Virus record (IMG/VR): IMGVR_UViG_3300042558_001443
Span: 1 to 42,574 of that record
Strand: one strand, 5' to 3'
Length of the DNA stretch: 42,574 bases
DNA from: a virus
A model generated the notes under the pieces. It was not told the origin of the DNA. It made no database searches and saw nothing but the letters and a program-made list of their open reading frames with translations. The position numbers were made by a program, and so were the translations under genes. Shown piece by piece: positions 1 through 37,976 of this stretch (positions are counted from its first letter, which is position 1; the number at the start of each line of letters is the position of its first letter).

Positions 1-205
1 ATGGTCTACATTTTGGGTACCCCTTTCTTCCTTTTTCACCATTCGCATCACTACGTCCACATGGTGGATGTTTACCATCTATTTTTCTACTAACATCTAC
101 CCATTTTTCTTTAAACCATCTACCCAAATCTTCTTGTAGTACCTCACCATTATTGATGGATAGTTTAATGTATTGTAGGTCTTCTTCGTTTATGTGTATT
201 TTCAT
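1..205 (-). CDS. Small Cys-containing conserved phage protein (3' end outside window)
   Basis: An ATG at 205-203 opens a frame that stays open to the left edge, giving 68 residues with the C-terminus missing. The visible part has an acidic start (MKIHINEEDL) and then a basic block with WFKEKWVDVSRK, PPCGRSD and GYPKCRP. That Trp/Cys/Gly pattern recurs in small proteins of unknown function from large phages and algal viruses; I recall it from the DUF5872 group but cannot verify this. It lies 3 nt after the stop of the 151-residue gene, so both are probably co-transcribed from the late-type promoter at 669-675. Function is unknown; a small virion-associated protein is an inference from the late context. 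Confidence 0.7.
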   Translation of the reverse strand, partial: MKIHINEEDLQYIKLSINNGEVLQEDLGRWFKEKWVDVSRKIDGKHPPCGRSDANGEKGRKGYPKCRP

Positions 206-2076: not shown

Positions 2077-3636
2077 TTAGTTGATTCTAATTGAATTATT
2101 TAAAATATCCTGTTTCATTGTTTCCATTAACTTCATTAATTTAATATAATTCGGGTCACTTGGTACCGGAGGCCCAACTAAATTGTGTTGGTGACTGAAT
2201 ATTAAATTGATTATGGACTCAATAAGTGTAATAAGTGTCTCACCCCTAACTGATGAATATGTATGACGTAAAATATCAGTCATGTAATTGTCCTGACTTA
2301 ATTCATATTTTTCTAATTTAGAAAAATCTATCCCAATTTGTTTTTCTGGAGGATTGGACTCTGGTGATAACAAAAATATTTTATCTGATTTTAAAGATGA
2401 AAAAGTTTGTTCAGAGCTCGGGGTATCCCTTAATTTTGTAACAGTTTTAGTTATCGGTCTAGTCGTAGGAGACATTTTTGTTTTATCATAAACTAAACCA
2501 CTTTTAGGCCCAATCCCTTGACCTAATGTCACATTATTAAATATTGTAACTCTATTGTTAATTTCATTTTGAGTCGTCAATGTAGCATTAACACAAGATA
2601 AGGTGGGTCTAAAATAAAATGGATGTAAATCAACACTTGAAAATGGTAGTGCCGGATCTATATGGAAAAGACTTGTTTTATTATGTATTTTCTTTAAGGT
2701 ATGTCTAATTTTTTTATAGATACCATTTACACCGTTAGATAAAATATCCGAAACGGGTACGGTGAATGTTGGTTCTGTTGTTCCTGTTGTTATTAATTGA
2801 GTGTTACCGGTAATGATTGGTGAATTTTCTAATTTTGGATTACTCGTATTATATATGTTGCCGTAAGTTGTTTGTTTGGCATTATCAAAATCTTTAATAA
2901 GATATACGTAAAAACTAATAATTGCGTTACTACCATCAAATTTATCAATACTATATTCTATTATTGATTTTAAATTTTTAGATTCGGTAATAAGTTCAGT
3001 TGTGGTATCTTCATAATATTCTAATTTATTACTATATTTTTTAAGGTGTAGTGTCGCCATTTTATTTGACATGTATGGCTTATTAAACGTGTTTTGTGAT
3101 TGTGCAACCATCGTTTTTGGCACAAACTTACCTCCTCTTAAAGATAGACCATTTTCCGTGAATAAAACGTCCGAACCATTTTTACCATATACTGCGTAGT
3201 CATCATATTTCGCTATTGACGATTTTACAAAACTATCAATAATTTGACCATCGTTTTTATTAACAATTTTTGGTAGTTCCGAATCGGCTCCTCCGTATGT
3301 TGTATTTTTAACTTGTGATGAGTATACTTGTGTATTAAAATCGTGTGTTGTTGTAAATGGTCCAGAAATATATTCTCTATTTACCGTGTCTTTAACTGGA
3401 TTGTAATTAATGAGTTTAACCGATTGACCAATTAAGGGTATGTAGTTTATATTTGCAGGTAAAAATGGAATCGCAATAAATGGATCTTTGTCATCCCACG
3501 GCTCATATTTTAAGGCACCCGCAGAGGGACCGGCCCCATCACCAAATGTTTGAATACGTATTCTACCTAAACCTAACGGGTCTCTATTATCTGTACATGA
3601 ACCCAGTTCAATTATTCTAGTGCTCACATCACTCAT
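2077..3636 (-). CDS. Baseplate central spike / hub protein, gp5-like OB-fold
   Basis: A 519-residue protein. Residues ~10-100 contain the hallmark of gp5/VgrG N-terminal OB-fold domains: CTDNRDPLGLGRIRIQ, then PFLPANINYIPLIGQSVKLI. The central part is low in recognisable motifs. Near residues 470-500 is GETLITLIESIINL followed by SHQHNLVGPPVP, a segment typical of phage spike/baseplate proteins where His-rich turns precede a trimeric tip. No lysozyme catalytic motif is visible, so it appears to lack the muramidase domain of T4 gp5. It overlaps the upstream 66-residue gene by ATGA and belongs to the unit that starts at 6137. Role: pierces the outer envelope as the central needle of the baseplate. 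Confidence 0.75.
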   Translation of the reverse strand: MSDVSTRIIELGSCTDNRDPLGLGRIRIQTFGDGAGPSAGALKYEPWDDKDPFIAIPFLPANINYIPLIGQSVKLINYNPVKDTVNREYISGPFTTTHDFNTQVYSSQVKNTTYGGADSELPKIVNKNDGQIIDSFVKSSIAKYDDYAVYGKNGSDVLFTENGLSLRGGKFVPKTMVAQSQNTFNKPYMSNKMATLHLKKYSNKLEYYEDTTTELITESKNLKSIIEYSIDKFDGSNAIISFYVYLIKDFDNAKQTTYGNIYNTSNPKLENSPIITGNTQLITTGTTEPTFTVPVSDILSNGVNGIYKKIRHTLKKIHNKTSLFHIDPALPFSSVDLHPFYFRPTLSCVNATLTTQNEINNRVTIFNNVTLGQGIGPKSGLVYDKTKMSPTTRPITKTVTKLRDTPSSEQTFSSLKSDKIFLLSPESNPPEKQIGIDFSKLEKYELSQDNYMTDILRHTYSSVRGETLITLIESIINLIFSHQHNLVGPPVPSDPNYIKLMKLMETMKQDILNNSIRIN

Positions 3637-26703: not shown

Positions 26704-29556
26704 ATGGCAAATTCAAACAGAGTATTCGTTTCTCCGGGTGTGTACACATCTGAGAAGGATCTAACATTCGTAGCACAAAGTGTTGGGGTAACAACTTTAG
26801 GTTTAGTGGGTGAGGCTTTAAAAGGTCCCGCTTTTGAACCTATCTTAGTTGGGGACTTCGACGAATTTAAAACGTATTTTGGACCAACTTCACCTGAGAA
26901 AGACGGTGCAAACAATCCTAAATACGAATTAGCATATATGGCTAAATCATACTTACAAGAGTCTAATCAATTATTCGTAACAAGAATACTTGGTAAAACG
27001 GGGTATAAACCAGGAAGAACCTATAGTATTAAAACTTTAGGTGGAGTTAATCTTGGATCTTTAAGTGGTTCAACAACAGGAATAACATTATCGGCAACAA
27101 CTGCAACTATCACAGGTTCAACAATTTATGGTGAACTTTCGGGTAAAACTGCAACTAATGGTTCAACAGTGACTGATTATATCATTAATAAAATCGGTAA
27201 GAGTAGTGCAGCTTACGCAAATAACGATTGGTTCGTTATTGGTAATGTACCTGCTTCGGACACTTCAAGTTTAACGGGAGTAAAACTTTTATCACCAATT
27301 GGTGAAAATGCTAACAAAAACTGGTATAATGCGTTCTTTACAAAAACAGGAGTAACTGACTCAACAATTGATGGTGTTTACTCTTATCTTTTTGTTTATT
27401 CTACAAGTTCATCTTCATTTAATGTAACAAGATACAAATACAACGCGTCTCTTAACACAGACTATAGTGACGTTATTGTTGCTTCTTTAAGATCGAGAGG
27501 TGAATATAACGCCACACAAAGTTTAGTACTACAAGTAACAGGAACAACCGCAGTAACATTAACCGACGTTAGTGGAATCACAATTAACCCGATGGCGGAA
27601 TTTGCAATAAATGTTACAGACATTACGGGTGGAACAAAAACATTTAATTGTTCATTAGATATCTCATCAACAAAATATATAAATAAAGTATTAGGTACTG
27701 AAGTTTTTGATAAAGTAAAAGAAGATTATCCGTTATTCGTTAACGAGGTATATTCTAACTTATTATTATCGGCTTATAGACATGGACACGTAAGAGGTTT
27801 AAGTTTAGATGTTGTATCAAATAGTGAAAGTGATAATTTTGCTCAATCATGGGATACTCCATCATCACCAACAATTGTATCTGAAGTTCGTGGTGGTAAT
27901 GTTGCGGATTTATTCTCAGTATTAACCATATCTGATGGAGATGCTGCAAATACTGAAGTTAAGGTTACAATTCAAAACATTAATTTAGATACTGCTGAAT
28001 TTGACATCATAGTTCGTGATTTTAACGATACTGACGAAAATCAAGTTATATTGGAGAAATTTTCAAGATGTTCAATGAATCCTGACGTTCCAGGTTATGT
28101 TGCAAGAAAAGTTGGTACATCTGATGGTGAATATGAGTTACGTTCAAAATTCATTATGTTAAACATGGCAAGTAACGCTCCAATGGATGCGTTTCCCGCA
28201 GGTTTCAAAGGATTCACGTCTTCACTTATTTCAAGTAATAAATTGGGTAGTGTTCTTTATAAAACGGAATTTTTTGATGGTGGAGATGTAGTTTATTACG
28301 AATCGGATGGTTCACAAGTTCTATCTAATGGAGATAAAGTTAAGAAAGTTTCTTTAGGTTTATCCTCTCAAAATGGTTTCAAATTTGATAGTGATTTGTT
28401 CAAATATAAAGGAAACACAGCGTCTAGTAGTACATTTGGTTTCCACTTGTCAACAAACGCTTCATCAATCACAGGAACAACATATCAAACAACATCATAT
28501 GATTTAGAAGGTCAATCTGGTAATGACAATAAATTAACTAACATAAACTTCCGTAAATTTACATTAGCGGTTTGTGGTGGTTTTGATGGTTGGGACATAT
28601 ACAGAGAGACAAGAACTCTTGGTGACCAATTTATTTATGGTAAAACAACATACAATTTAGGTAATACCGATAACAATGGTGTATTCAGTAAAGATTTTGG
28701 AAACTCTGATTACTACTCATATTTAGAAGGAATTCAAACATATGCAAATCCTGAGGCAATTGACATTAACGTATTTGCTACCGCGGGTATCAACTTCTTC
28801 GATCACTCATCATTGACAAGTCAAGCAATTGATATTATTGAAAACGAAAGAGCGGATTCACTTTACATCATATCAGCACCAAATGTTGATGATGCTGCAA
28901 CCGTTACAGGTCACCTTGATGATTTGGGAATCGACTCTAACTATTCAGCAACATACTGGCCTTGGATTCAAGTAAGAGACACAGATAATGCGACTCAACT
29001 TTACATCCCACCAACAGGTGAAGTATTGAAGAACATCGCGTTAACTGATAACGTATCTTATCCTTGGTTCGCAGTTGCGGGTTATTCAAGAGGTTTGGTA
29101 AATGCAATTAAAGCTAAAAAGAAGTTAACTCTTGACGAGAGAGATGAACTTTACAAAAATAGAATTAATCCAATCGCAACATTCTCTGATACAGGTACAA
29201 TTATTTGGGGTAACAAAACGTTACAAGTTAGAGAATCAGCACTTGATAGAATCAACGTAAGAAGATTGTTATTGAGAGCAAGAAAATTAATTTCTGCAGT
29301 TGCGGTAAGATTATTGTTCGAACAAAATGACGAACAAGTAAGACAAGAGTTCTTAAGATTGGTTAACCCAATTTTAGAATCAATTAAGAAAGAAAGAGGT
29401 CTTTATGAATTTAAAGTAAGTGTTTCAAGTGATGTCGAAGACATTGACGCAAACACTTTGAGAGGTAAAATTTACGTTAAACCTACTCGTTCTCTTGAAT
29501 TTATTGATTTGGAATTCGTAATTACTCCAACAGGAGCTTCATTCGAGAATATCTAA
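26704..29556 (+). CDS. Tail sheath protein, gp18-like
   Basis: A 950-residue contractile sheath subunit, larger than T4 gp18 (659). The N-terminus VFVSPGVYTSEKDLTFVAQS, then GLVGEALKGPAFEPILVGDF and FKTYFG, is the classic sheath start. The C-terminal domain (residues ~770-950) has SYPWFAVAGYSRGLVNAIKA, then DRINVRRLLLRARKLI, then EFKVSVSSDVEDIDANTLRG, with IYVKPTRSLEFIDLEFVITP as the handshake/core region. Residues ~110-480 form the Ser/Thr/Gly-rich, surface-exposed insertion that accounts for the length. It polymerises around the tube and contracts on infection. Its own TATTTAT element 38 nt upstream and a strong terminator after it indicate a monocistronic, highly expressed late gene. Confidence 0.95.
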   Translation: MANSNRVFVSPGVYTSEKDLTFVAQSVGVTTLGLVGEALKGPAFEPILVGDFDEFKTYFGPTSPEKDGANNPKYELAYMAKSYLQESNQLFVTRILGKTGYKPGRTYSIKTLGGVNLGSLSGSTTGITLSATTATITGSTIYGELSGKTATNGSTVTDYIINKIGKSSAAYANNDWFVIGNVPASDTSSLTGVKLLSPIGENANKNWYNAFFTKTGVTDSTIDGVYSYLFVYSTSSSSFNVTRYKYNASLNTDYSDVIVASLRSRGEYNATQSLVLQVTGTTAVTLTDVSGITINPMAEFAINVTDITGGTKTFNCSLDISSTKYINKVLGTEVFDKVKEDYPLFVNEVYSNLLLSAYRHGHVRGLSLDVVSNSESDNFAQSWDTPSSPTIVSEVRGGNVADLFSVLTISDGDAANTEVKVTIQNINLDTAEFDIIVRDFNDTDENQVILEKFSRCSMNPDVPGYVARKVGTSDGEYELRSKFIMLNMASNAPMDAFPAGFKGFTSSLISSNKLGSVLYKTEFFDGGDVVYYESDGSQVLSNGDKVKKVSLGLSSQNGFKFDSDLFKYKGNTASSSTFGFHLSTNASSITGTTYQTTSYDLEGQSGNDNKLTNINFRKFTLAVCGGFDGWDIYRETRTLGDQFIYGKTTYNLGNTDNNGVFSKDFGNSDYYSYLEGIQTYANPEAIDINVFATAGINFFDHSSLTSQAIDIIENERADSLYIISAPNVDDAATVTGHLDDLGIDSNYSATYWPWIQVRDTDNATQLYIPPTGEVLKNIALTDNVSYPWFAVAGYSRGLVNAIKAKKKLTLDERDELYKNRINPIATFSDTGTIIWGNKTLQVRESALDRINVRRLLLRARKLISAVAVRLLFEQNDEQVRQEFLRLVNPILESIKKERGLYEFKVSVSSDVEDIDANTLRGKIYVKPTRSLEFIDLEFVITPTGASFENI

Positions 29557-29879: not shown

Positions 29880-30368
29880 ATGGCAGATTTACTAATGAAA
29901 ATGCCGGTTCCTTACGAACCGAAAAGACAGAACCGATTTATTGTAAGATTCCCATCTTCTTTGGGTATCAATGAATGGTATGTAACATCAGCGGCTAGAC
30001 CATCCGCAAAAATCAACGCGACTGAAATTCCTTTTTTAAATACTTCAACATATGTTGCGGGTAAATTTAGTTGGGATACCATGAGGGTAACATTTAAAGA
30101 CCCAATTGGACCATCAGCGTCACAAGCGTTAATGGAATGGTTCCGTTTACACGCTGAGTCAGTTACTGGTCGTATGGGATATGCTGCCGGTTATAAAAAA
30201 GACATCGAACTTGAAATGTTAGACCCAACAGGTGTTGTTGTTGAAAAATGGATTCTTCAAGGAACATTTATTCAAGACATTAACTTTGGTGAATTGGACT
30301 ATTCAAGAGATGAAATTGCAACTATCCAATGTACTTTACGTATGGATAGATGTATACTTGTATTCTAA
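29880..30368 (+). CDS. Tail tube protein, gp19-like
   Basis: A 162-residue protein, the usual size for gp19-type tubes (T4 gp19 163 aa). It contains EPKRQNRFIVRFPSSLGINE, then AARPSAKINATEIPFLNTST, YVAGKFSWDTMRVTFKDPIG and FIQDINFGELDYSRDEIATI, the conserved strand/turn order of contractile-tail tube subunits ('f.i.....IP..n...yvag.....i.vt..D'). Hexamers stack into the rigid inner tube around the tape measure. It has its own late promoter element and a terminator after it, mirroring the sheath gene and matching the high copy number needed. Confidence 0.92.
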   Translation: MADLLMKMPVPYEPKRQNRFIVRFPSSLGINEWYVTSAARPSAKINATEIPFLNTSTYVAGKFSWDTMRVTFKDPIGPSASQALMEWFRLHAESVTGRMGYAAGYKKDIELEMLDPTGVVVEKWILQGTFIQDINFGELDYSRDEIATIQCTLRMDRCILVF

Positions 30369-30469: not shown

Positions 30470-31219
30470 ATGGAAGAATTAAGAATTGACCCTAGAATCG
30501 CATATGATGTTGTGGAATTACCAAGTAGAGGTATCCACTATTCAAATGGTAAGAAATCAGTAAGAGTTGCTTACCTAACTGCCGCGGATGAAAATATATT
30601 AGCGTCCCCAAATTTAATACAAACAAATGCAATAGTTAATGAACTATTAAAAAGAAAGGTATTGGATAAGGATATCCAAACTGAAGATTTAGTTGAGGAG
30701 GATAAAGAGGCAATCTTAATATTTTTAAGAAATACCGCATTTGGTTCAGAATATAAAGTTACATTAACTGACCCAAAAACAAACGAAGACTTTGAAGTTG
30801 AAATTGATTTAAGTAGTTTAGATTTTAAACCATTTACATTAGTAGCAGATTCTAACGGAGAGTATTCGTATTTTATGAATAAATCCAAAGTAGATGTGAC
30901 ATTTAAGTTTTTAACACAAAAACAAGAAAATGACATAAAAGAAATTGCAAAGAGTTGGAATGGTAATGGAATTGCTCCAATTATCACAAAACAACTTGAA
31001 GGTATGATTAAATCCGTGGCTGGAGTTAATGACCCAATGAATACAAGAAATTTCATTGAGAACATGCCAATTAAGGATTCACAAGATTTTAGAAAATATG
31101 TATCCGATAATAAGCCAGGAATTGACCTAACACAAACAGCAAAAACCCCATCAGGAGAAGAGATCCAATTTAGAATTGGGTTTGGGGTTGACTTTTTTCG
31201 CCCTTTCTACGGAGTATAA
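30470..31219 (+). CDS. Tail-assembly / baseplate chaperone, gp26-like (unshifted product)
   Basis: A 249-residue protein. The N-terminus (RIAYDVVELPSRGIHYSNGK, then VRVAYLTAADENILASPNL) fits the T4_baseplate/gp26 type ('lPSkG..y.....v.vr.Lt..dE..l'), the group acting between tube and tape-measure genes in T4-like and other contractile phages. Residues ~75-190 are helical, with IKSVAGVNDP. It ends FFRPFYGV. Directly at this end, a C(T)6 run plus a CGC codon overlaps a second frame that continues for 49 codons, so the gene probably yields two products like other tail chaperones (compare G/GT of lambda). No TATTTAT element is visible upstream. Confidence 0.8.
   Translation: MEELRIDPRIAYDVVELPSRGIHYSNGKKSVRVAYLTAADENILASPNLIQTNAIVNELLKRKVLDKDIQTEDLVEEDKEAILIFLRNTAFGSEYKVTLTDPKTNEDFEVEIDLSSLDFKPFTLVADSNGEYSYFMNKSKVDVTFKFLTQKQENDIKEIAKSWNGNGIAPIITKQLEGMIKSVAGVNDPMNTRNFIENMPIKDSQDFRKYVSDNKPGIDLTQTAKTPSGEEIQFRIGFGVDFFRPFYGV
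31193..31202 (+). promoter_or_regulatory. Probable +1 ribosomal frameshift site in the chaperone gene
   Basis: Frame 0 reads GAC TTT TTT CGC. After a +1 slip the Phe tRNA on the second TTT (31196-31198) re-pairs with TTC (31197-31199), a better codon match, and the next codon is GCC (31200-31202). The A-site codon CGC is a rarely used Arg codon in this A+T-rich genome, as in other +1 sites where a slow codon follows a slippery one. Confidence 0.6.
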
Positions 31220-31349
31220 GAAAAATCAATTATCGGAAATTCACTACCTAATCAGGAAAGGTTTCTCATATGGAGACATTTTAACTATGCCTGTCTATAT
31301 TAGACGATACTATATTGGTTATATAATGGAGTTGGAAAACACACAATAA
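31200..31349 (+). CDS. Frameshifted C-terminal extension of the chaperone (49 codons)
   Basis: In the +1 frame, 49 codons from 31200 end in TAA at 31347-31349. The predicted shifted protein is 243 unshifted residues plus 49, i.e. 292. The extension begins ALSTEYKKNQLSEIHYLI and continues RKGFSYGDILTMPVYIRRYY, ending MELENTQ. 'DILxMPVYIRRxYI' is typical of the T-like downstream domain of phage tail chaperones, and it lies exactly between chaperone and tape measure. It has no ATG of its own until the middle (ATGCCTG at MPVYIRR), so expression as a separate protein is less likely. Confidence 0.7.
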   Translation, partial: ALSTEYKKNQLSEIHYLIRKGFSYGDILTMPVYIRRYYIGYIMELENTQ

Positions 31350-31362: not shown

Positions 31363-33237
31363 ATGGGACAAATAAGATATCAAACTTTAGCTAGTCAATC
31401 AAAAGACAGAGCCGCATACGAAAGAGCCGTAAAAGATTCTGCAAAAAGTTACAATGAACAAATTGATTTAACTGAATATGAAAGGGCTTGGAAAGAGAAA
31501 GAAAACTATAACTCAAACAAACCAACTACATCAGGTTCTAAAACATTTATTGAGGCGGCTACAGGTATTTTAAAAGGACAAGAAAGTGGAGGTTATTACA
31601 AAGATATTAGTCAGTCCGTTAATTCAACAAGTGCCATGTCAATGGCAACAGGTGCTGATGGGAAATTATTAGGACCCGACCAAATAGCTCAAAATGTATT
31701 CAAGGCAGGTTTAAGTCAAATGACGGATGAATATAATAACCAAAGAAAGTTATTAGAAGACATCAATACTAAAACCGGTTTAACTGGTAAACTATCAAAA
31801 GATTTTAGAGAAGAGATTTCAAATGCGGGACCAAGATTAGCTCAATTAGGTGTCTCATTTGAAACATTAGCTGACGTTGCTCAGGGATTAGTTGATAAAT
31901 CAGGAAGATTCAATTTAATTAATCAACAATCATTTGAAAAGGCTGCAGAAGTTGGGGAAGCTTATTTAGGTTCAATGGAGAGTCTTACGAACATGTTACC
32001 TGATTTTGAAAAAGTTGGTATAGGTGCTCAAGGTACATTTGACGCGGTAGAAAAGGCAGGAAAAAGTTCATTAACATTAGGTCTAAACTCACAAAGAGTT
32101 GCAAAAGATTTACAAACAAATATAGGTAAGTTAAACGAATACGGATTCCAAAAAGGAGTTGAGGGTTTAACTAGAATGGTCCAAAAATCTATTGAATTTA
32201 GATTAAGTATGGATGCAGTTTCACAAGTGGCCGAAAAGGTATTCAGTCCTGAAAGTGCATTAGAGTTATCTGCTAACTTACAAGTATTAGGTGGCGCAAT
32301 TGGAGATTTCAATGACCCACTTAAATTAATGTATATGGCGACAAATAATGTTGAGGGATTACAAGATTCAATTATTAATGCCGCAAGTAGTTTAGCAACA
32401 TACAACCAAGAACAAGGAAGATTTGAAGTTACGGGTGTTAACCTAAGAAAAGTGAGAGAGATGGCTGCGTCTTTAGGTATGGACTATAAGGAACTTACAA
32501 AGACCGCAATTGCGGCACAAGAAAGATTGAGTGCTAAAGAAATGTTAACTGGTTTAAGAATTGAAGATGCCGATAAGGAATTCTTAACTAACATGTCTCA
32601 GATGAAAAATGGTAAAATGACCATTGAATTACAATCTGAAGAATTGAAAAAACGTTTTGGGGCAAATGAAGTTGCATTAGAGGATTTAGATAAGAACCAA
32701 GCTGAATTATTATTACAATATAGAGACGAATTTAAAAAATTAACATCTGATGAAATAGTTAGAAACCAAGCTAGTGACGTTGAAAATATTAGACGTGATG
32801 TATCCTTTTTAGTTAAATCAGTTGCATTAACTGGAACAAGAGAAGTTCAAGAGATGGCCAAAAAATTGGGTATTGATTTTAAAAATTTCGCAGATGTAAC
32901 AAAAGAAACATTACCAAAAGCGGCAACTTTAATCAATAATGAAATAAAAGGTATAGTTACACCTGATAAAAAACAAACAGGTAAAGTTGAAACACCAAAA
33001 GCTGCGGTAACCCAAGAAGATGCTAAAAAAATGGCGGAAGAAGAAGCTAAAAAACAAAAAGAAGCGTCTACTCAAATGGATAAAAATGTCAAAGTAACAA
33101 ACGAATATGTATTCAAAGGTGGAGACACTTTAGTTGATGGTTGGATGAGAGAAGTAGGTAAGAACGCAAGTATCTATAACGATTTCCATACCGTAGATAC
33201 CCAATCGTATACTACACCATCAACCGCTAAAAGATAA
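31363..33237 (+). CDS. Tail tape measure protein
   Basis: A 624-residue, largely helical protein directly after the frameshifted chaperone, the diagnostic position of the tape measure. Long heptad-like helices run through residues ~120-560 (LLEDINTKTGLTGKLSKDFR, then ALELSANLQVLGGAIGDFND and KLMYMATNNVEGLQD, as in phage tape measures with an ALELSANLQ...GG repeat). A Lys/Glu-rich low-complexity segment near ~540-575 (EDAKKMAEEEAKKQKEAS) precedes the end. No lysozyme or peptidase motif is seen. By the usual ~0.15 nm per residue it would give a tail near 95 nm, similar to T4 (gp29 590 aa). Confidence 0.8.
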   Translation: MGQIRYQTLASQSKDRAAYERAVKDSAKSYNEQIDLTEYERAWKEKENYNSNKPTTSGSKTFIEAATGILKGQESGGYYKDISQSVNSTSAMSMATGADGKLLGPDQIAQNVFKAGLSQMTDEYNNQRKLLEDINTKTGLTGKLSKDFREEISNAGPRLAQLGVSFETLADVAQGLVDKSGRFNLINQQSFEKAAEVGEAYLGSMESLTNMLPDFEKVGIGAQGTFDAVEKAGKSSLTLGLNSQRVAKDLQTNIGKLNEYGFQKGVEGLTRMVQKSIEFRLSMDAVSQVAEKVFSPESALELSANLQVLGGAIGDFNDPLKLMYMATNNVEGLQDSIINAASSLATYNQEQGRFEVTGVNLRKVREMAASLGMDYKELTKTAIAAQERLSAKEMLTGLRIEDADKEFLTNMSQMKNGKMTIELQSEELKKRFGANEVALEDLDKNQAELLLQYRDEFKKLTSDEIVRNQASDVENIRRDVSFLVKSVALTGTREVQEMAKKLGIDFKNFADVTKETLPKAATLINNEIKGIVTPDKKQTGKVETPKAAVTQEDAKKMAEEEAKKQKEASTQMDKNVKVTNEYVFKGGDTLVDGWMREVGKNASIYNDFHTVDTQSYTTPSTAKR

Positions 33238-33272: not shown

Positions 33273-36200
33273 ATGCCAAGTTACTTAAATTTTGACTCAA
33301 CCAAACAATTTAGGGATTTTATCATAGCTAAAACGTTAAACAAACCAAATGGTCCACAAACGTTTACTAAAGATAACTATGACTATCAAAAATTAAGTAA
33401 TCTATCAAATGTGGATCCGGGTTCAGTTGATAAAAATAGAAAAGATGATTTAATTAAAATTTCTAATTCAAACGTATACAAACCAACTAATTTTTTTATA
33501 AAAGAAAATATTGATACGTTACCAAGAACACGTAACCTATCATTATATTTTAATGGTGGTTCCCCATATTTTACTGCGGAAAAACATAATTTAATCAGTA
33601 TCATGGCAACAAAAACGTATGATACCGAATCTGAATTATTTAAATTTGCCGCAAAATACATAAGAGAAGATAAAGGGGGACCTGTATTAACAAGGATAGC
33701 ATATAATACAGATAGAGCGATTAATGGTAAGGTAAGATTGTTAGATGCGTTAAATGGTAACACAGCGACCGCGTTAAACATATTAACAGGTAGAGAACCA
33801 TTGGTTGAAATGAATAATAAGATTACTGTTGCAAGTACTCTTATTGGTAAAGGTATTGATTTTTTACAAACAGTTTCAGGAACACAATTACCATTTAGTG
33901 AAATACCGGGTGATTATTTATCAGACCCAAGAAACCCAATAAATTATAGACCCGAAGCAAAAACTGAATTAGGTAAAATTGCACAAGATGTTACGGGAGT
34001 GTTAGGTTCATTAATTGGAATTGAAAGAAGACCGAAGTTATCGAGAAAACCTTCAGATTTATTAATACAATATATGGGACAAGGACCTAAACAGGCTTTG
34101 TTTGATTCATTAACATTTAATAGATACGCACCGAACTACACAACAAGTGCAAGGTCACAACAATCATCAAAGTTGTTTAGTTTTGTAGATAAAGCTGCTC
34201 AGGGTATAAAAAATATATTAGGGGTTGAAGCACCTGCAGGACAAGCCTACATTGGTGACGATAGATCAAACGATGTAAGATTTGCCATGGGTGATTTTAA
34301 TGACAATCAAGTAAGAAGTACTTACTATCTTTCATTGATGTTCGATGAAATTTCTGCTCAGTTATTTCATAAAAGTAAAAATGTAACTGAGGGTGGACAA
34401 ATTAGCGGTAAACTAACTTGGTATAGTAAAAATTCTAAAAATAAATTAGGAGAACATAACAAGGAATATAGTGGTAGGGAACAAACTAACTTACAAGATA
34501 GTCTATCAACAAAATATGTTTTTAGAGAAGATTCAATTTTAGGAAAAACACAACAATTATTAAACACATTACCAACTAATGGTTCTGAAATGCGTTCTCA
34601 TGTGGCAAACGTAATTGACCAAACAAGTAGAGTTTTTAAAGATGGTGAGGTAATGATGTCAAGAGGTTCCGCAGTAAAATACACAAACAAATTTTCTGGT
34701 GAAGAAAGTGGTGTTGAATATTGTAGAGTATGGACAAAAGATAGACCATACTTTAACTATACAGATACCATGAAAAAAACAAACATGGTAAGAAAGTTTG
34801 ATGGAAGTGTAATGGGTGGAGGCAGTAGAGTATGGAACTTAAACTATGCTCCAATGTCAAATGGTAGAAAATCATTTGAAAATTCAACAAATATAAAAGA
34901 CGGACAAGCAAAAAAATATATGTTTTCAATTGAAAACTTGGCTTGGAAATCATCCACACAAAAAGGGTTCACCGTACAAGATTTACCAATTTGTGAAAGA
35001 GGTTCAAATGGCGGTAGAGTGATGTGGTTCCCACCATATGATTTAAAAGTATCAGAACAAAATAGTGCTAAATGGGAAGAGAATAGCTTTTTAGGTAGAC
35101 CCGAACCAATATACACTTATCAAAATACATCAAGAAGTGGTACAATATCATTTAAAGTTGTTGTTGACCACCCAAGTATTTTAAATCTATTAGTAAGAGA
35201 ACATTTCAAAGGTATGTCAGATGAAGAGGCTGATAACTACATTAACGCATTCTTTGCTGGATGTGAGGAAATTGACTTTTATGATTTAGTAAGAAAATAC
35301 ACTAACTTAGATACTGATGATATAAAAAGAATTAATGAATATCTTAATGCGGGGAAAGAAATGTCCACCATTATGAAATACAAATATTCATCAGAAGAAG
35401 TTGAGGAAGTTGTACCAGAAACGGGAGAGACACCAACAAAAGCACCAGAACCTTTTTCATTAGCGTTATTTTTCCCAAATGATATTCCATCTAAAAATGG
35501 AAAGGACACAACAAAAGGAGAAATATATAGTACAATACAACCTTCATATTATGCTCAAAAAGCCTCTTTAAATGCGGACGCTTTAGCTGATTTTACAAGA
35601 TTAAGTGGAGACACAAGTTCAGATGCAATTCAAGATATAAAGACAATTTTTAAATTAGAAAAATCAAAAATAACAGATTTCACCAAAGCTATTAATTTAC
35701 AACTTGATAAGTTAAACACGGGATTTGAAAAATTAAATACAAACTATACAGAATTTACCACAAAAATTGATAACCTTAAAAAGGCGGTAAGTGGAAACAC
35801 AATTGAACTTGCTGAATTTAAAATACTATCAAGTGCGTCCGAAGTTGCGAATGATGATTATAATTTCTTATTAGGAATGAGACGAGCTCACTCTTTAGTA
35901 TTAGATATTCTTACTAGATTAAAAGGTGACACGGATAAAATACCTGACTTTAACTGGCCATCAGAAGAGGAAGTTAAAAAGAATGCTAAAGATGGTTTAA
36001 ATGACCAAAAGTTAACATTTACTTTTGAAAAGTTAGGTTATAAAAATAACGTAGGTAAATTAATTATAAATTTTTCTACAGAAGGTGAAAATGCAAAAGG
36101 ATTAACAAATGTTGATCCTGATGGTAGATTAGATTGTAAGACCGTCATTAATACAAAATATGGTTTAAAGATAACAACACCAAATGCGTTTTATTGTAGA

Positions 36201-37976
36201 CAAACAAGTGTTAAGTTTTCGGCTAAAACACTTAGTGTACAAAAACCACCATCAACACAAAAAATTAAAATACCAAAAATTACAAAGGAGCCAGGTGAAC
36301 CGGAAAAAACATATACACCAAAGCCACCTATTGATGTAATGAAAAGAATCATTACCAAAACACTATCTGAATGTTACTACTTTAAAAAATTAGAAGAAGA
36401 TTCACCATTAGCGTTTACATCACTAAAAGAGAAGTTAAAATATTTTCATCCGGCTTTCCACTCAACAACACCCGAAGGTTTGAACTCAAGATTAACGTTC
36501 TTACTACAATGTGTGAGACCTGGTAATACAATACCTATAAAAGGAATTGCGGATGTTAATGATTTAAATGCACGAAATACTTCTTTCGGACCACCACCGA
36601 TATGTGTAATAAGAATTGGTGATTTTTATCATTCTAAAATTGTGATAAGAGACATCAACATAACGTATGACGACTCGACTTGGGATTTAAATCCTGAAGG
36701 TATTGGTGTACAACCAATGATTGCTAGTGTAACGTTACAAGTTAGTTTCATAGGTGGTCAAGGATTGGAAAGACCGGTTGAAAAATTACAAAATGCATTA
36801 TCATCAAATTTCTTTGCAAATACTGAGATATACGATGAAAGAGCACAATCAACCGCAACATTAATTGATGGTAAACCTGCGGATAAATTTACTAAAGAAT
36901 TTATTGCAGAATTACAAAAGAAACCAGAATTTCAGTTAGAAGGTGATAAAGACAATAGACCAAAAGTAACACAAGGAGTGTACATTGGTTCATTAAATGA
37001 TAGTAAAATTGAATATAATGCACTTATTGATGCAATTTATAGTACTACTGATTCATATATTAACTTATACCAATCATCATATAACGAAGTTATAAAAAAA
37101 TATGGAGACAAAATATCAAGTTTATTCTTCCATAACAGATATAAAAGTGTAACAGGATTAACAATTAATACAAGTACAACAACAACTGACATAATACCTT
37201 TATTAGGTGCAACTAACAATGTTGCGGATATAAATTTTTATAGTGAAAAACTTAAAATAGATTTAGAAAGTTATATCAATAATAATGATGTTACCACCTT
37301 ATTGGGTTTTAATAAAGCAGTAACAAGTGAAGGAATGGATTGGTCTAACGAAAAATTAAGAGAAACGTTAAAATCAATCATTAACGAAAAAATAGGGGAA
37401 ATGCCTGAAAGTAGTTCACTAAAGAAATTAGAAGATTCTAGAAATAAAGTAATTAAATTATTTGAAAAAGCTAATTTTTTAGTTAAAAATGAATTTGATG
37501 GTAAAATTAATGGAACTGAATTCAGCTCAACAACATTGTCAGGATTTACAAGTACAGCGTTCTACAATCATTATTCAAGTATTGTTGATTATCTTAAAAA
37601 TAAACATGGAGAATTTAATGAAGATTTAGATATTAGTTTTGATTTTGTTAACGACACATTAAACGACGATATTTTCGTAGAGATAATTTCAATATTATTA
37701 CAAGGAAAGAAAGAGACTATAACTAAACTTTATGAGGAAATTTCGACAAAAGAAATATCCGATAAAATTGGTGAGATTGTGGACAAATTAATAGAGACCC
37801 CAAAAGAAAAGAAATTTAGAATGGGTAAATTCCCTATTAAAAAGGGTAATGGTAAAATAGAATATAATATTAATGTTACCGATTACATTGTTATTGATGA
37901 AATAAAACAAAGTTTAATGAACGTCTTCAATGAAGGGGAAGTTAAATATGGTACAGAAACCTTTAAATTAACATAA
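33273..37976 (+). CDS. Very large baseplate protein with tube-initiator-like region
   Basis: A 1567-residue protein. Around residues 575-640 is RVMWFPPYDLKVSEQNSAKW, then LGRPEPIYTYQNTSRSGTIS and FKVVVDHPS; 'F.P.........W....GR.EPi..Y..t...isF' recalls the tube-initiator/LysM-type baseplate proteins of contractile tails (XkdM/gp48-gp54 area). Residues ~1085-1175 (FHPAFHSTTPEGLNSRLTFL, then FGPPPICVIRIGDFYHSKIV and IRDINITYDDSTW) look like a second baseplate-type domain, where FYHSKIVI may bind the tube end. The middle (~765-860) is helical and coiled-coil-like, and the last 300 residues are acidic/helical. It is far larger than T4 baseplate genes other than gp7 (1032 aa); probably a fused or enlarged wedge/hub component. 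Confidence 0.6.
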   Translation: MPSYLNFDSTKQFRDFIIAKTLNKPNGPQTFTKDNYDYQKLSNLSNVDPGSVDKNRKDDLIKISNSNVYKPTNFFIKENIDTLPRTRNLSLYFNGGSPYFTAEKHNLISIMATKTYDTESELFKFAAKYIREDKGGPVLTRIAYNTDRAINGKVRLLDALNGNTATALNILTGREPLVEMNNKITVASTLIGKGIDFLQTVSGTQLPFSEIPGDYLSDPRNPINYRPEAKTELGKIAQDVTGVLGSLIGIERRPKLSRKPSDLLIQYMGQGPKQALFDSLTFNRYAPNYTTSARSQQSSKLFSFVDKAAQGIKNILGVEAPAGQAYIGDDRSNDVRFAMGDFNDNQVRSTYYLSLMFDEISAQLFHKSKNVTEGGQISGKLTWYSKNSKNKLGEHNKEYSGREQTNLQDSLSTKYVFREDSILGKTQQLLNTLPTNGSEMRSHVANVIDQTSRVFKDGEVMMSRGSAVKYTNKFSGEESGVEYCRVWTKDRPYFNYTDTMKKTNMVRKFDGSVMGGGSRVWNLNYAPMSNGRKSFENSTNIKDGQAKKYMFSIENLAWKSSTQKGFTVQDLPICERGSNGGRVMWFPPYDLKVSEQNSAKWEENSFLGRPEPIYTYQNTSRSGTISFKVVVDHPSILNLLVREHFKGMSDEEADNYINAFFAGCEEIDFYDLVRKYTNLDTDDIKRINEYLNAGKEMSTIMKYKYSSEEVEEVVPETGETPTKAPEPFSLALFFPNDIPSKNGKDTTKGEIYSTIQPSYYAQKASLNADALADFTRLSGDTSSDAIQDIKTIFKLEKSKITDFTKAINLQLDKLNTGFEKLNTNYTEFTTKIDNLKKAVSGNTIELAEFKILSSASEVANDDYNFLLGMRRAHSLVLDILTRLKGDTDKIPDFNWPSEEEVKKNAKDGLNDQKLTFTFEKLGYKNNVGKLIINFSTEGENAKGLTNVDPDGRLDCKTVINTKYGLKITTPNAFYCRQTSVKFSAKTLSVQKPPSTQKIKIPKITKEPGEPEKTYTPKPPIDVMKRIITKTLSECYYFKKLEEDSPLAFTSLKEKLKYFHPAFHSTTPEGLNSRLTFLLQCVRPGNTIPIKGIADVNDLNARNTSFGPPPICVIRIGDFYHSKIVIRDINITYDDSTWDLNPEGIGVQPMIASVTLQVSFIGGQGLERPVEKLQNALSSNFFANTEIYDERAQSTATLIDGKPADKFTKEFIAELQKKPEFQLEGDKDNRPKVTQGVYIGSLNDSKIEYNALIDAIYSTTDSYINLYQSSYNEVIKKYGDKISSLFFHNRYKSVTGLTINTSTTTTDIIPLLGATNNVADINFYSEKLKIDLESYINNNDVTTLLGFNKAVTSEGMDWSNEKLRETLKSIINEKIGEMPESSSLKKLEDSRNKVIKLFEKANFLVKNEFDGKINGTEFSSTTLSGFTSTAFYNHYSSIVDYLKNKHGEFNEDLDISFDFVNDTLNDDIFVEIISILLQGKKETITKLYEEISTKEISDKIGEIVDKLIETPKEKKFRMGKFPIKKGNGKIEYNINVTDYIVIDEIKQSLMNVFNEGEVKYGTETFKLT

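Follow-up and report, generated by a model that had tools for sequence, protein, structure and literature searches.

Tail assembly chaperone (TAC) genes of T4-like phages were reportedly identified by Vladimirov, Gautam and Davidson in 2022 (Virology 566:9-15), who are said to have found frameshifting conserved in several T4-like groups and T4 itself to use genes 26 and 51. These two T4 genes are divergently oriented and need no frameshift, and both gp26 and gp51 match PF12322, as does the ORF examined here. The Adele paper, in the portion that treats these signals, cites Vladimirov et al. 2022 on the poly-T signals for -1 shifting in TAC-N genes of T4-like phages (PMC12846349). In its passages on tailed phages, the Atkins review gives -1, -2 or +1 as the shifts in use, with a very likely +1 shift in the halovirus HSTV-2 (PMC5009743). 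Going by the description there, our locus resembles lambda gpG/gpGT and HSTV-2 in that a short and an extended chaperone arise by frameshifting in a direction that varies, the lambda shift being -1, whereas that of the clade described here appears to be +1 (PMC5009743). The slip site itself has a likeness in influenza A virus PA-X, where UCC_UUU_CGU has the same P-site UUU_C, A-site CGN and +1 direction. Firth et al. 2012, in the text that concerns this site, report that the shift was shown by a mass spectrometry peptide and predict a class of UUU_C sites preferring CGN in the A-site (PMC3498833). The E-sites differ, being UCC in PA-X, a case from viruses of eukaryotes, and UUU (70) or UUC (4) in the 74 clusters of our clade, which also has an upstream stem, whereas PA-X is described in the relevant part of the review as without evident stimulatory signals (PMC5009743). 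TAC frameshifting in T4-like phages and +1 TACs elsewhere are already known; no paper describing the +1 TAC group reported here was found in the literature searched, in which subscription journals were sparsely covered and few papers were examined closely.

The DNA analyzed here, hereafter the window, is a viral stretch of 42,574 nucleotides (IMG/VR record IMGVR_UViG_3300042558_001443, positions 1 to 42,574), and all features described below lie on its + strand. The gene at 30470..31219 encodes a protein of 249 aa that is, by predicted function, a T4 gp26-type tail assembly chaperone in its short form (TAC-N). The ORF belongs to PF12322 in the family profile search (37.1 bits, cut-off 24.5, E 3.5e-9) and matches phrog_150 (E 8.4e-12); an earlier note, made from the sequence alone, had called it a tail assembly chaperone gene, and these matches uphold that identity; structural matches to the HK97 chaperone and YqbN are of moderate Z. 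AlphaFold2 modeling of the joined protein described below gave a mean pLDDT of 88 with 38 relatives (61-82 in the blocks holding the extension) and a poor fold from the single sequence (mean pLDDT 38). Only two structures reached Z ≥5 among 991 aligned chains, a set preselected with Foldseek: the HK97 tail assembly chaperone 2ob9 (Z 5.5, 95 residues, 4.5 Å) and YqbN 3klu (Z 5.0, 83 residues), both with moderate scores, the next best having Z 2.6. YqbN is presumably a relative of the phage chaperones. In the PDB, Foldseek found nothing with an E of 0.001 or below (2ob9, E 1.6), and the best predicted viral structures included an SP-15 'baseplate hub subunit'.

The chaperone ORF lies downstream of a tail sheath gene (26704..29556; phrog_23, E 3.3e-62; PF04984) and a gp19-like tail tube gene (29880..30368), the latter assigned by phrog_4542 (E 1.1e-28), with PF06841 at 26.0 bits below its cut-off of 28.2. 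It is followed by a presumed tape measure gene (31363..33237, 624 aa), so called by position, which had no useful family match in PF and phrog profile searches and a weak BLASTP match (E 0.010) to part of the annotated tape measure protein of phage immuto. Farther on, after the tape measure candidate, an ORF of 1567 aa (33273-37976) likewise had no useful family match in profile searches.

Near its end, frame 0 of the chaperone gene reads TTT TTT CGC CCT TTC TAC GGA GTA TAA, with the stop TAA at 31217-31219. The proposed shift site, TTT TTT CGC, occupies 31193..31201, with the P-site at 31196-31198 and CGC in the A-site at 31199-31201. From there the +1 frame continues as an extension (TAC-C; 31200..31349) of 49 codons (31200-31346) and a TAA (31347-31349), and the joined translation of frame 0 and the +1 frame is 292 aa long. 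The -1 frame of the window is open for only about 19 codons at the site. The codons, the 49-codon continuation and the uselessness of the -1 frame were all as the earlier note had read them. We put at roughly nine in ten the probability that a +1 frameshift produces an extended chaperone from this gene. The two frames, their conservation, the selection on the extension, the codon constraints and the conserved stem are visible in the sequences of the window and its relatives, and from them two chaperone products appear to come from one gene.

Because searching the phage collection at the nucleotide level with the window stretch gave no matches, relatives were collected by protein searches, from IMG/VR (35 loci; the best 80 of at least 543; the best 80 of at least 600; the best 80 of 276; and 1) and from named phages. 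Shifted frames were read in 287 loci in which a gp26-like ORF and its stop were found, with near-copies and the window itself counted. The best match was the protein of the window, of immuto or of Microcystis phage Mel-JY01 in 203/287 loci, and in 197 of these the +1 frame runs on for 40 or more codons beyond the stop of frame 0; five of the remaining six reach contig ends, and one, from a 595-kb phage (L043, see below), does not fit. The other 84/287 loci matched S-PM2 best, and in all 84 the -1 frame is open for at least 50 codons and the +1 frame for fewer than 30. The -1 frame is open for fewer than 30 codons in 118/118 window-group loci. It is open for 30 or more in 18/69 mel-group and 7/16 immuto-group loci, so that frame openness alone is no argument in those two groups. 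Clustering at 85% nucleotide identity gave 76 window-group, 55 mel/immuto and 37 cyanophage-type clusters; two window-group clusters (L108 and L117, TTT-TTT-TGG) were removed, leaving 74, and L036, L040, L041, L043 and L299 were dropped from the mel/immuto clusters.

Among the relatives of the window, the +1 frame of the extension is under purifying selection, judging from substitution ratios. Over 72 complete extensions and 234 pairs differing by 5-35%, pN/pS was 0.34 in the +1 frame and 1.04 and 1.32 in the other two, and pN was below pS in all 234 pairs; the pairs are non-independent, which does not account for the contrast between frames. The extension is, moreover, homologous to known TAC-C in profile comparisons (hhalign): window clade against mel clade, 99.4% and 2e-21; mel clade against the -1 cyanophage clade, 94.9% and 4.5e-8; window clade against the -1 clade, 85.6% and 5.6e-6. 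The continuation that had merely looked conserved in one sequence is thus conserved among homologues, a point on which the earlier note had made its reading depend.

Codon choice at the proposed site is strongly constrained. With slip-site columns anchored on FFR, all 74 clusters have TTT as the second Phe codon (P-site) and a CGN codon in the A-site (CGT 30, CGG 21, CGC 20, CGA 3), against a background in these genes of about 10% CGN among Arg codons and 1% for CGC and CGG together. At the first Phe codon, 70 clusters use TTT and 4 use TTC, and other Phe columns are mixed, except for the post-site CCT-TTC column (TTC in 72/73). Every cluster (74/74) has a P-site UUU followed by C, an A-site CGN and a +1 extension, as expected of the UUU_CGN +1 class. 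Of the isolated phages covered, Streptococcus phage GXN1, a distant one, is alone in having TTT_CGN. Six long window ORFs contain 148 Arg codons between them, of which just the one at the slip site is CGC, in agreement with the earlier description of CGC as rare. When 65 conserved codon columns were ranked by how far codon choice deviates, the top four all fell in this cassette (Arg 4.50, Gly GGG 3.19, Phe TTC 2.04 and Pro CCT 1.62 bits; median 0.06 bits). The CGN, CCT and TTC biases are partly forced by dual coding downstream of the slip codon; one extension residue, for example, is determined by the third CGN base. GGG_G was tried as the slip codon and is excluded where the +1 frame would read TAG (11/74) or TAA (1).

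Synonymous +1 re-pairing from TTT to TTC, proposed in the earlier note, is possible at the P-site in 74/74 clusters; a synonymous +1 move is also possible one codon earlier in 70/74 and four codons earlier in 59/74, neither being universal. Schwartz and Curran reportedly found in 1997 that UUU-pyrimidine sites slip in E. coli. If the ribosome slipped by -2, or RNA polymerase slipped along the T run, the +1 frame could also be reached; the T6 or T7 present in 70/74 clusters would favor this, and -2 re-pairing is possible in 70/74, but four clusters carry TTC-TTT, with a T run of 3 on which a -2 P-site move would meet TCT, and immuto carries TTTCTTTGG. Since the +1 re-pairing is available even in the clusters with T3 runs, movement of tRNA-Phe from UUU to UUC fits the data, and we regard -2 and polymerase slippage as highly improbable. 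Hence, what is kept among homologues is TTT_CGN (74/74) rather than the T6-CGC whose conservation was to be checked, and of the two shifts originally considered workable, +1 stands throughout and -2 in only 70/74. In Flavobacterium phage immuto (L038, 3001-3711), the site reads TTT-CTT-TGG, with either CTT before T or the first TTT before C as the P-site; in the bacterial prfB shift, CTT precedes T at the P-site.

The extension could instead be a small separate gene with its own start, on the pattern of T4 genes 26 and 51. The absence of a start codon before mid-extension, claimed in the earlier note, holds for ATG and GTG in the window but not for TTG, which occurs three times upstream in the +1 frame (31176, 31182 and 31188), the last preceded by GGGG. 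Some ATG, GTG or TTG lies upstream in the +1 frame in 61/74 clusters, and two full genes exist in T4 and likewise in the annotation of Mel-JY01. Against a separate gene, a +1-frame stop lies within three codons upstream of the slip codon in 12/74 window-clade clusters (TAG 11, TAA 1) and 10/55 mel/immuto clusters, and no ATG, GTG or TTG at all is found upstream in 13/74 and 21/55, respectively (no ATG or GTG in 51/74 and 28/55). An upstream start is excluded in the 12 clusters because the +1 frame is closed just upstream, and the check for homologues with self-started genes, which would have counted against a frameshift, did not refute it. On these reading frames, a weak TTG start would be possible for the window alone and is ruled out for the family, and a separate gene seems to us very unlikely.

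Under the favored +1 shift, most ribosomes would stop at 31217 and release the 249-aa TAC-N. A minority would pause at UUU (31196-31198) with tRNA-Phe in place, the A-site holding the rare Arg codon CGC, for which no decoder has yet arrived, and the tRNA-Phe would find a better partner, UUC, one base forward, so entering the +1 frame.

Upstream of the site lies a conserved RNA stem, with a 5' arm ACCCCA at 31145..31150 (-51 to -46 from the P-site) and a 3' arm TGGGGT at 31183..31188 (-13 to -8) that holds the GGG codon. These arms pair in 96.4% of cells, as against 27-65% when slid, and RNAalifold retains the CCCC/GGGG stem alone. GGG is used in 70/74 clusters against a background of 7.8%, and dual coding does not explain this bias because the codon precedes the two-frame region. 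In the 5' arm, amino acids dictate three of the four C, and the third codon bases are the informative ones: -49, at the third position of a codon for Ala or Thr, is C in 69/74 (GCC 46, ACC 23; background 10% and 14%), and it pairs with -10, where the GGG codon ends. This pair of third bases reads CG in 69, AT in 3 and TA in 1, with 1 unpaired; the TA row is GXN1, which is unpaired in the MAFFT register. The covariation score of the stem (0.221) was above 500/500 shuffles (mean 0.178), two of five shuffle measures were unexceptional (pairs changed on both sides as high in 143/500, pair types in 485/500), and the end pair -46/-13 had no significant covariation (Fisher p 0.10). The distance between the stem and the slip site is fixed in nearly all 74 slices.

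Folding energies were compared with shuffled sequences in 37/74 window-group, 36/55 mel/immuto and 36/37 cyanophage-type clusters. In the window group, the 60 nt before the P-site are more stable than shuffles (mean z -1.67 +/- 0.15), the overlapping segment -36..24 gave -1.37, and six further segments gave -0.69 to +0.51. The window RNA itself had z -1.87 for 31137-31196 and, over the longer stretch 31130-31216, z 0.04, no better than shuffles. In a held-out test, IMG/VR was scanned with the cassette DNA minus the 5' arm, which returned at least 120 matches; those listed comprised 62 contexts already used, 5 repeats and 53 distinct new contexts. Among the matches listed, CCCC stands at -50..-47 in 53/53 new contexts (GCC 43, ACC 10), the +1 extension is 48-59 aa long in 50/53 (contig ends cut it short in the other 3), the -1 frame spans no more than 20 codons in 51 of 53, and 39/52 full-length new contexts have less than 85% identity to any earlier sequence. 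The held-out loci are still relatives, and hence this result indicates constraint, not independent origin.

We consider that the stem probably stimulates the forward slip. It is presumably located about where the mRNA leaves the ribosome, and the CCCC/GGGG helix could refold behind the passing ribosome, hindering backward and favoring forward movement. The mel/immuto +1 clade, with its extension at TTT_TGG, has an upstream z of -0.10 and -1.11 for 30-90 nt downstream (36/55 clusters), and the stem is thus dispensable for +1 shifting in general, since that clade lacks upstream structure. The same absence would suit a stem that serves some other purpose (RNA stability, translation coupling or RNA processing) or merely reflects a codon constraint, as would the near-invariance that limits covariation and the lack of extra stability over the longer window stretch. 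Such a non-stimulatory role accords less well with the third-base constraints in both arms (GGG 70/74; GCC/ACC 69/74, and 53/53 of the held-out contexts listed), the paired replacements at -49/-10 and the near-constant distance to the slip site across the 74 slices, and we regard it as possible, if rather doubtful.

Other elements around the stem were also considered. The SD-like TCAGGAGA in the upstream-stem loop is near-invariant at 31151..31158 and in relatives, with biased codons (GGA 71/73, TCA 58/73). Pairing of this loop with or past the shift site was rejected: by length, a helix scan placed 7 pairs between purines and the T run (95.4% of cells) first, above the CCCC/GGGG stem, and RNAalifold retains only that stem. 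An inner hairpin at 31162..31182 belongs to the predicted fold of the window and is absent from the consensus structure. The prfB site has a short spacing between its SD sequence and the shift site; an SD-like role for GGGG, which lies 8 nt from the P-site, unlike the prfB spacing, is not proposed.

The T4-like TAC genes with -1 extensions, from marine cyanophages and other phages (S-PM2, P-SSM2, HTVC008M, Cr30 and phiM12), have TAC-N and TAC-C homologous to those of the window clade, share the junction FF and likewise reach the extension near the 3' end of gp26. They differ in having T_TTT_TTC or T_TTT_TTT and a downstream structure, where the window clade has TTT_CGN, an upstream stem and +1. 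Among the 37 cyanophage-type clusters, 35 carry T_TTT_TTC and 2 T_TTT_TTT, and strong structure lies just downstream (z -2.41 +/- 0.27; upstream +0.20; 36 clusters). The window clade, with a +1 extension and z -0.69 downstream of the site, falls outside this combination of heptamer, downstream structure and -1 extension. Extensions in the -1 frame were also found in HTVC008M, phiW-14, pf16, P19, ACP17, VH7D, OLIVR6, RHph_I1_9, VP-1, Kevin and K474; in VP-1, K474 and RHph_I1_9, an annotated gene begins at the stop, and two coupled genes are possible there. A 2010 description, in the part that concerns gp51, gives the cyanophage protein as only about 20% of the length of other gp51 (PMC3037559). 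Most simply, cyanophage gp51 (L131, L132, L219-L298) would be the -1 extension of gp26 and not a shortened gene. The -1 clade TAC-C finds a match in the C-terminus of T4 gp51 (82.5%, E 9.8e-6), and the direct match of the window-clade extension to T4 gp51 is not significant (hhalign, 0.6%, E 0.089).

The N-domains of the +1 and -1 clades are homologous in profile comparison (92.3%, E 5.4e-7). In a tree of 72 rows, a branch with 100/100 support separates the two directions with one exception, L043: one side holds 24 rows with -1 extensions plus T4 gp26 and gp51, and the other 45 rows with +1 extensions (44 distinct, as GXN1, L042, was entered twice) plus L043. We tentatively suggest that one orthologous chaperone gene uses opposite frameshifts in two ancient phage lineages, the side on which the RNA structure lies having changed along with the direction: 3' in the cyanophages, together with a -1 heptamer, and in the window clade a 5' stem pushing forward on UUU_CGN. 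If so, homologous genes that seemingly need the same two products but take opposite shifts would amount to a natural experiment on frameshift direction, and the window clade would give bacterial viruses their own equivalent of the PA-X class, with a naturally occurring 'push' stimulator. UUU_CGN +1 sites, known from viruses of eukaryotes, would be extended to phages, and the upstream RNA element would be a candidate +1 stimulator.

L043 (LR756511, the 595-kb phage) reads GGT TTT TTC at 3180-3500, with a TAC-C-like stretch in the -1 frame, and lies weakly within the +1 clade (SH-aLRT 44); a second change of direction is possible there. In Stenotrophomonas phage IME-SM1 (L303), the annotated gp26 ORF (1471-2313) is longer and stops within what appears to be the TAC-C motif of the extension, for which reason this phage was left out of the tree; either a fused gene or a sequence error may account for it.

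The +1 reading would correct the annotation of phages, isolated as well as environmental, whose TAC-C has been overlooked or entered as a small hypothetical protein. Small hypothetical proteins annotated at L037 3728-3964, L038 3827-3937 and L041 3312-3431 overlap or follow the start of the +1 extension and look like pieces of TAC-C for which a start was picked inside or before it.
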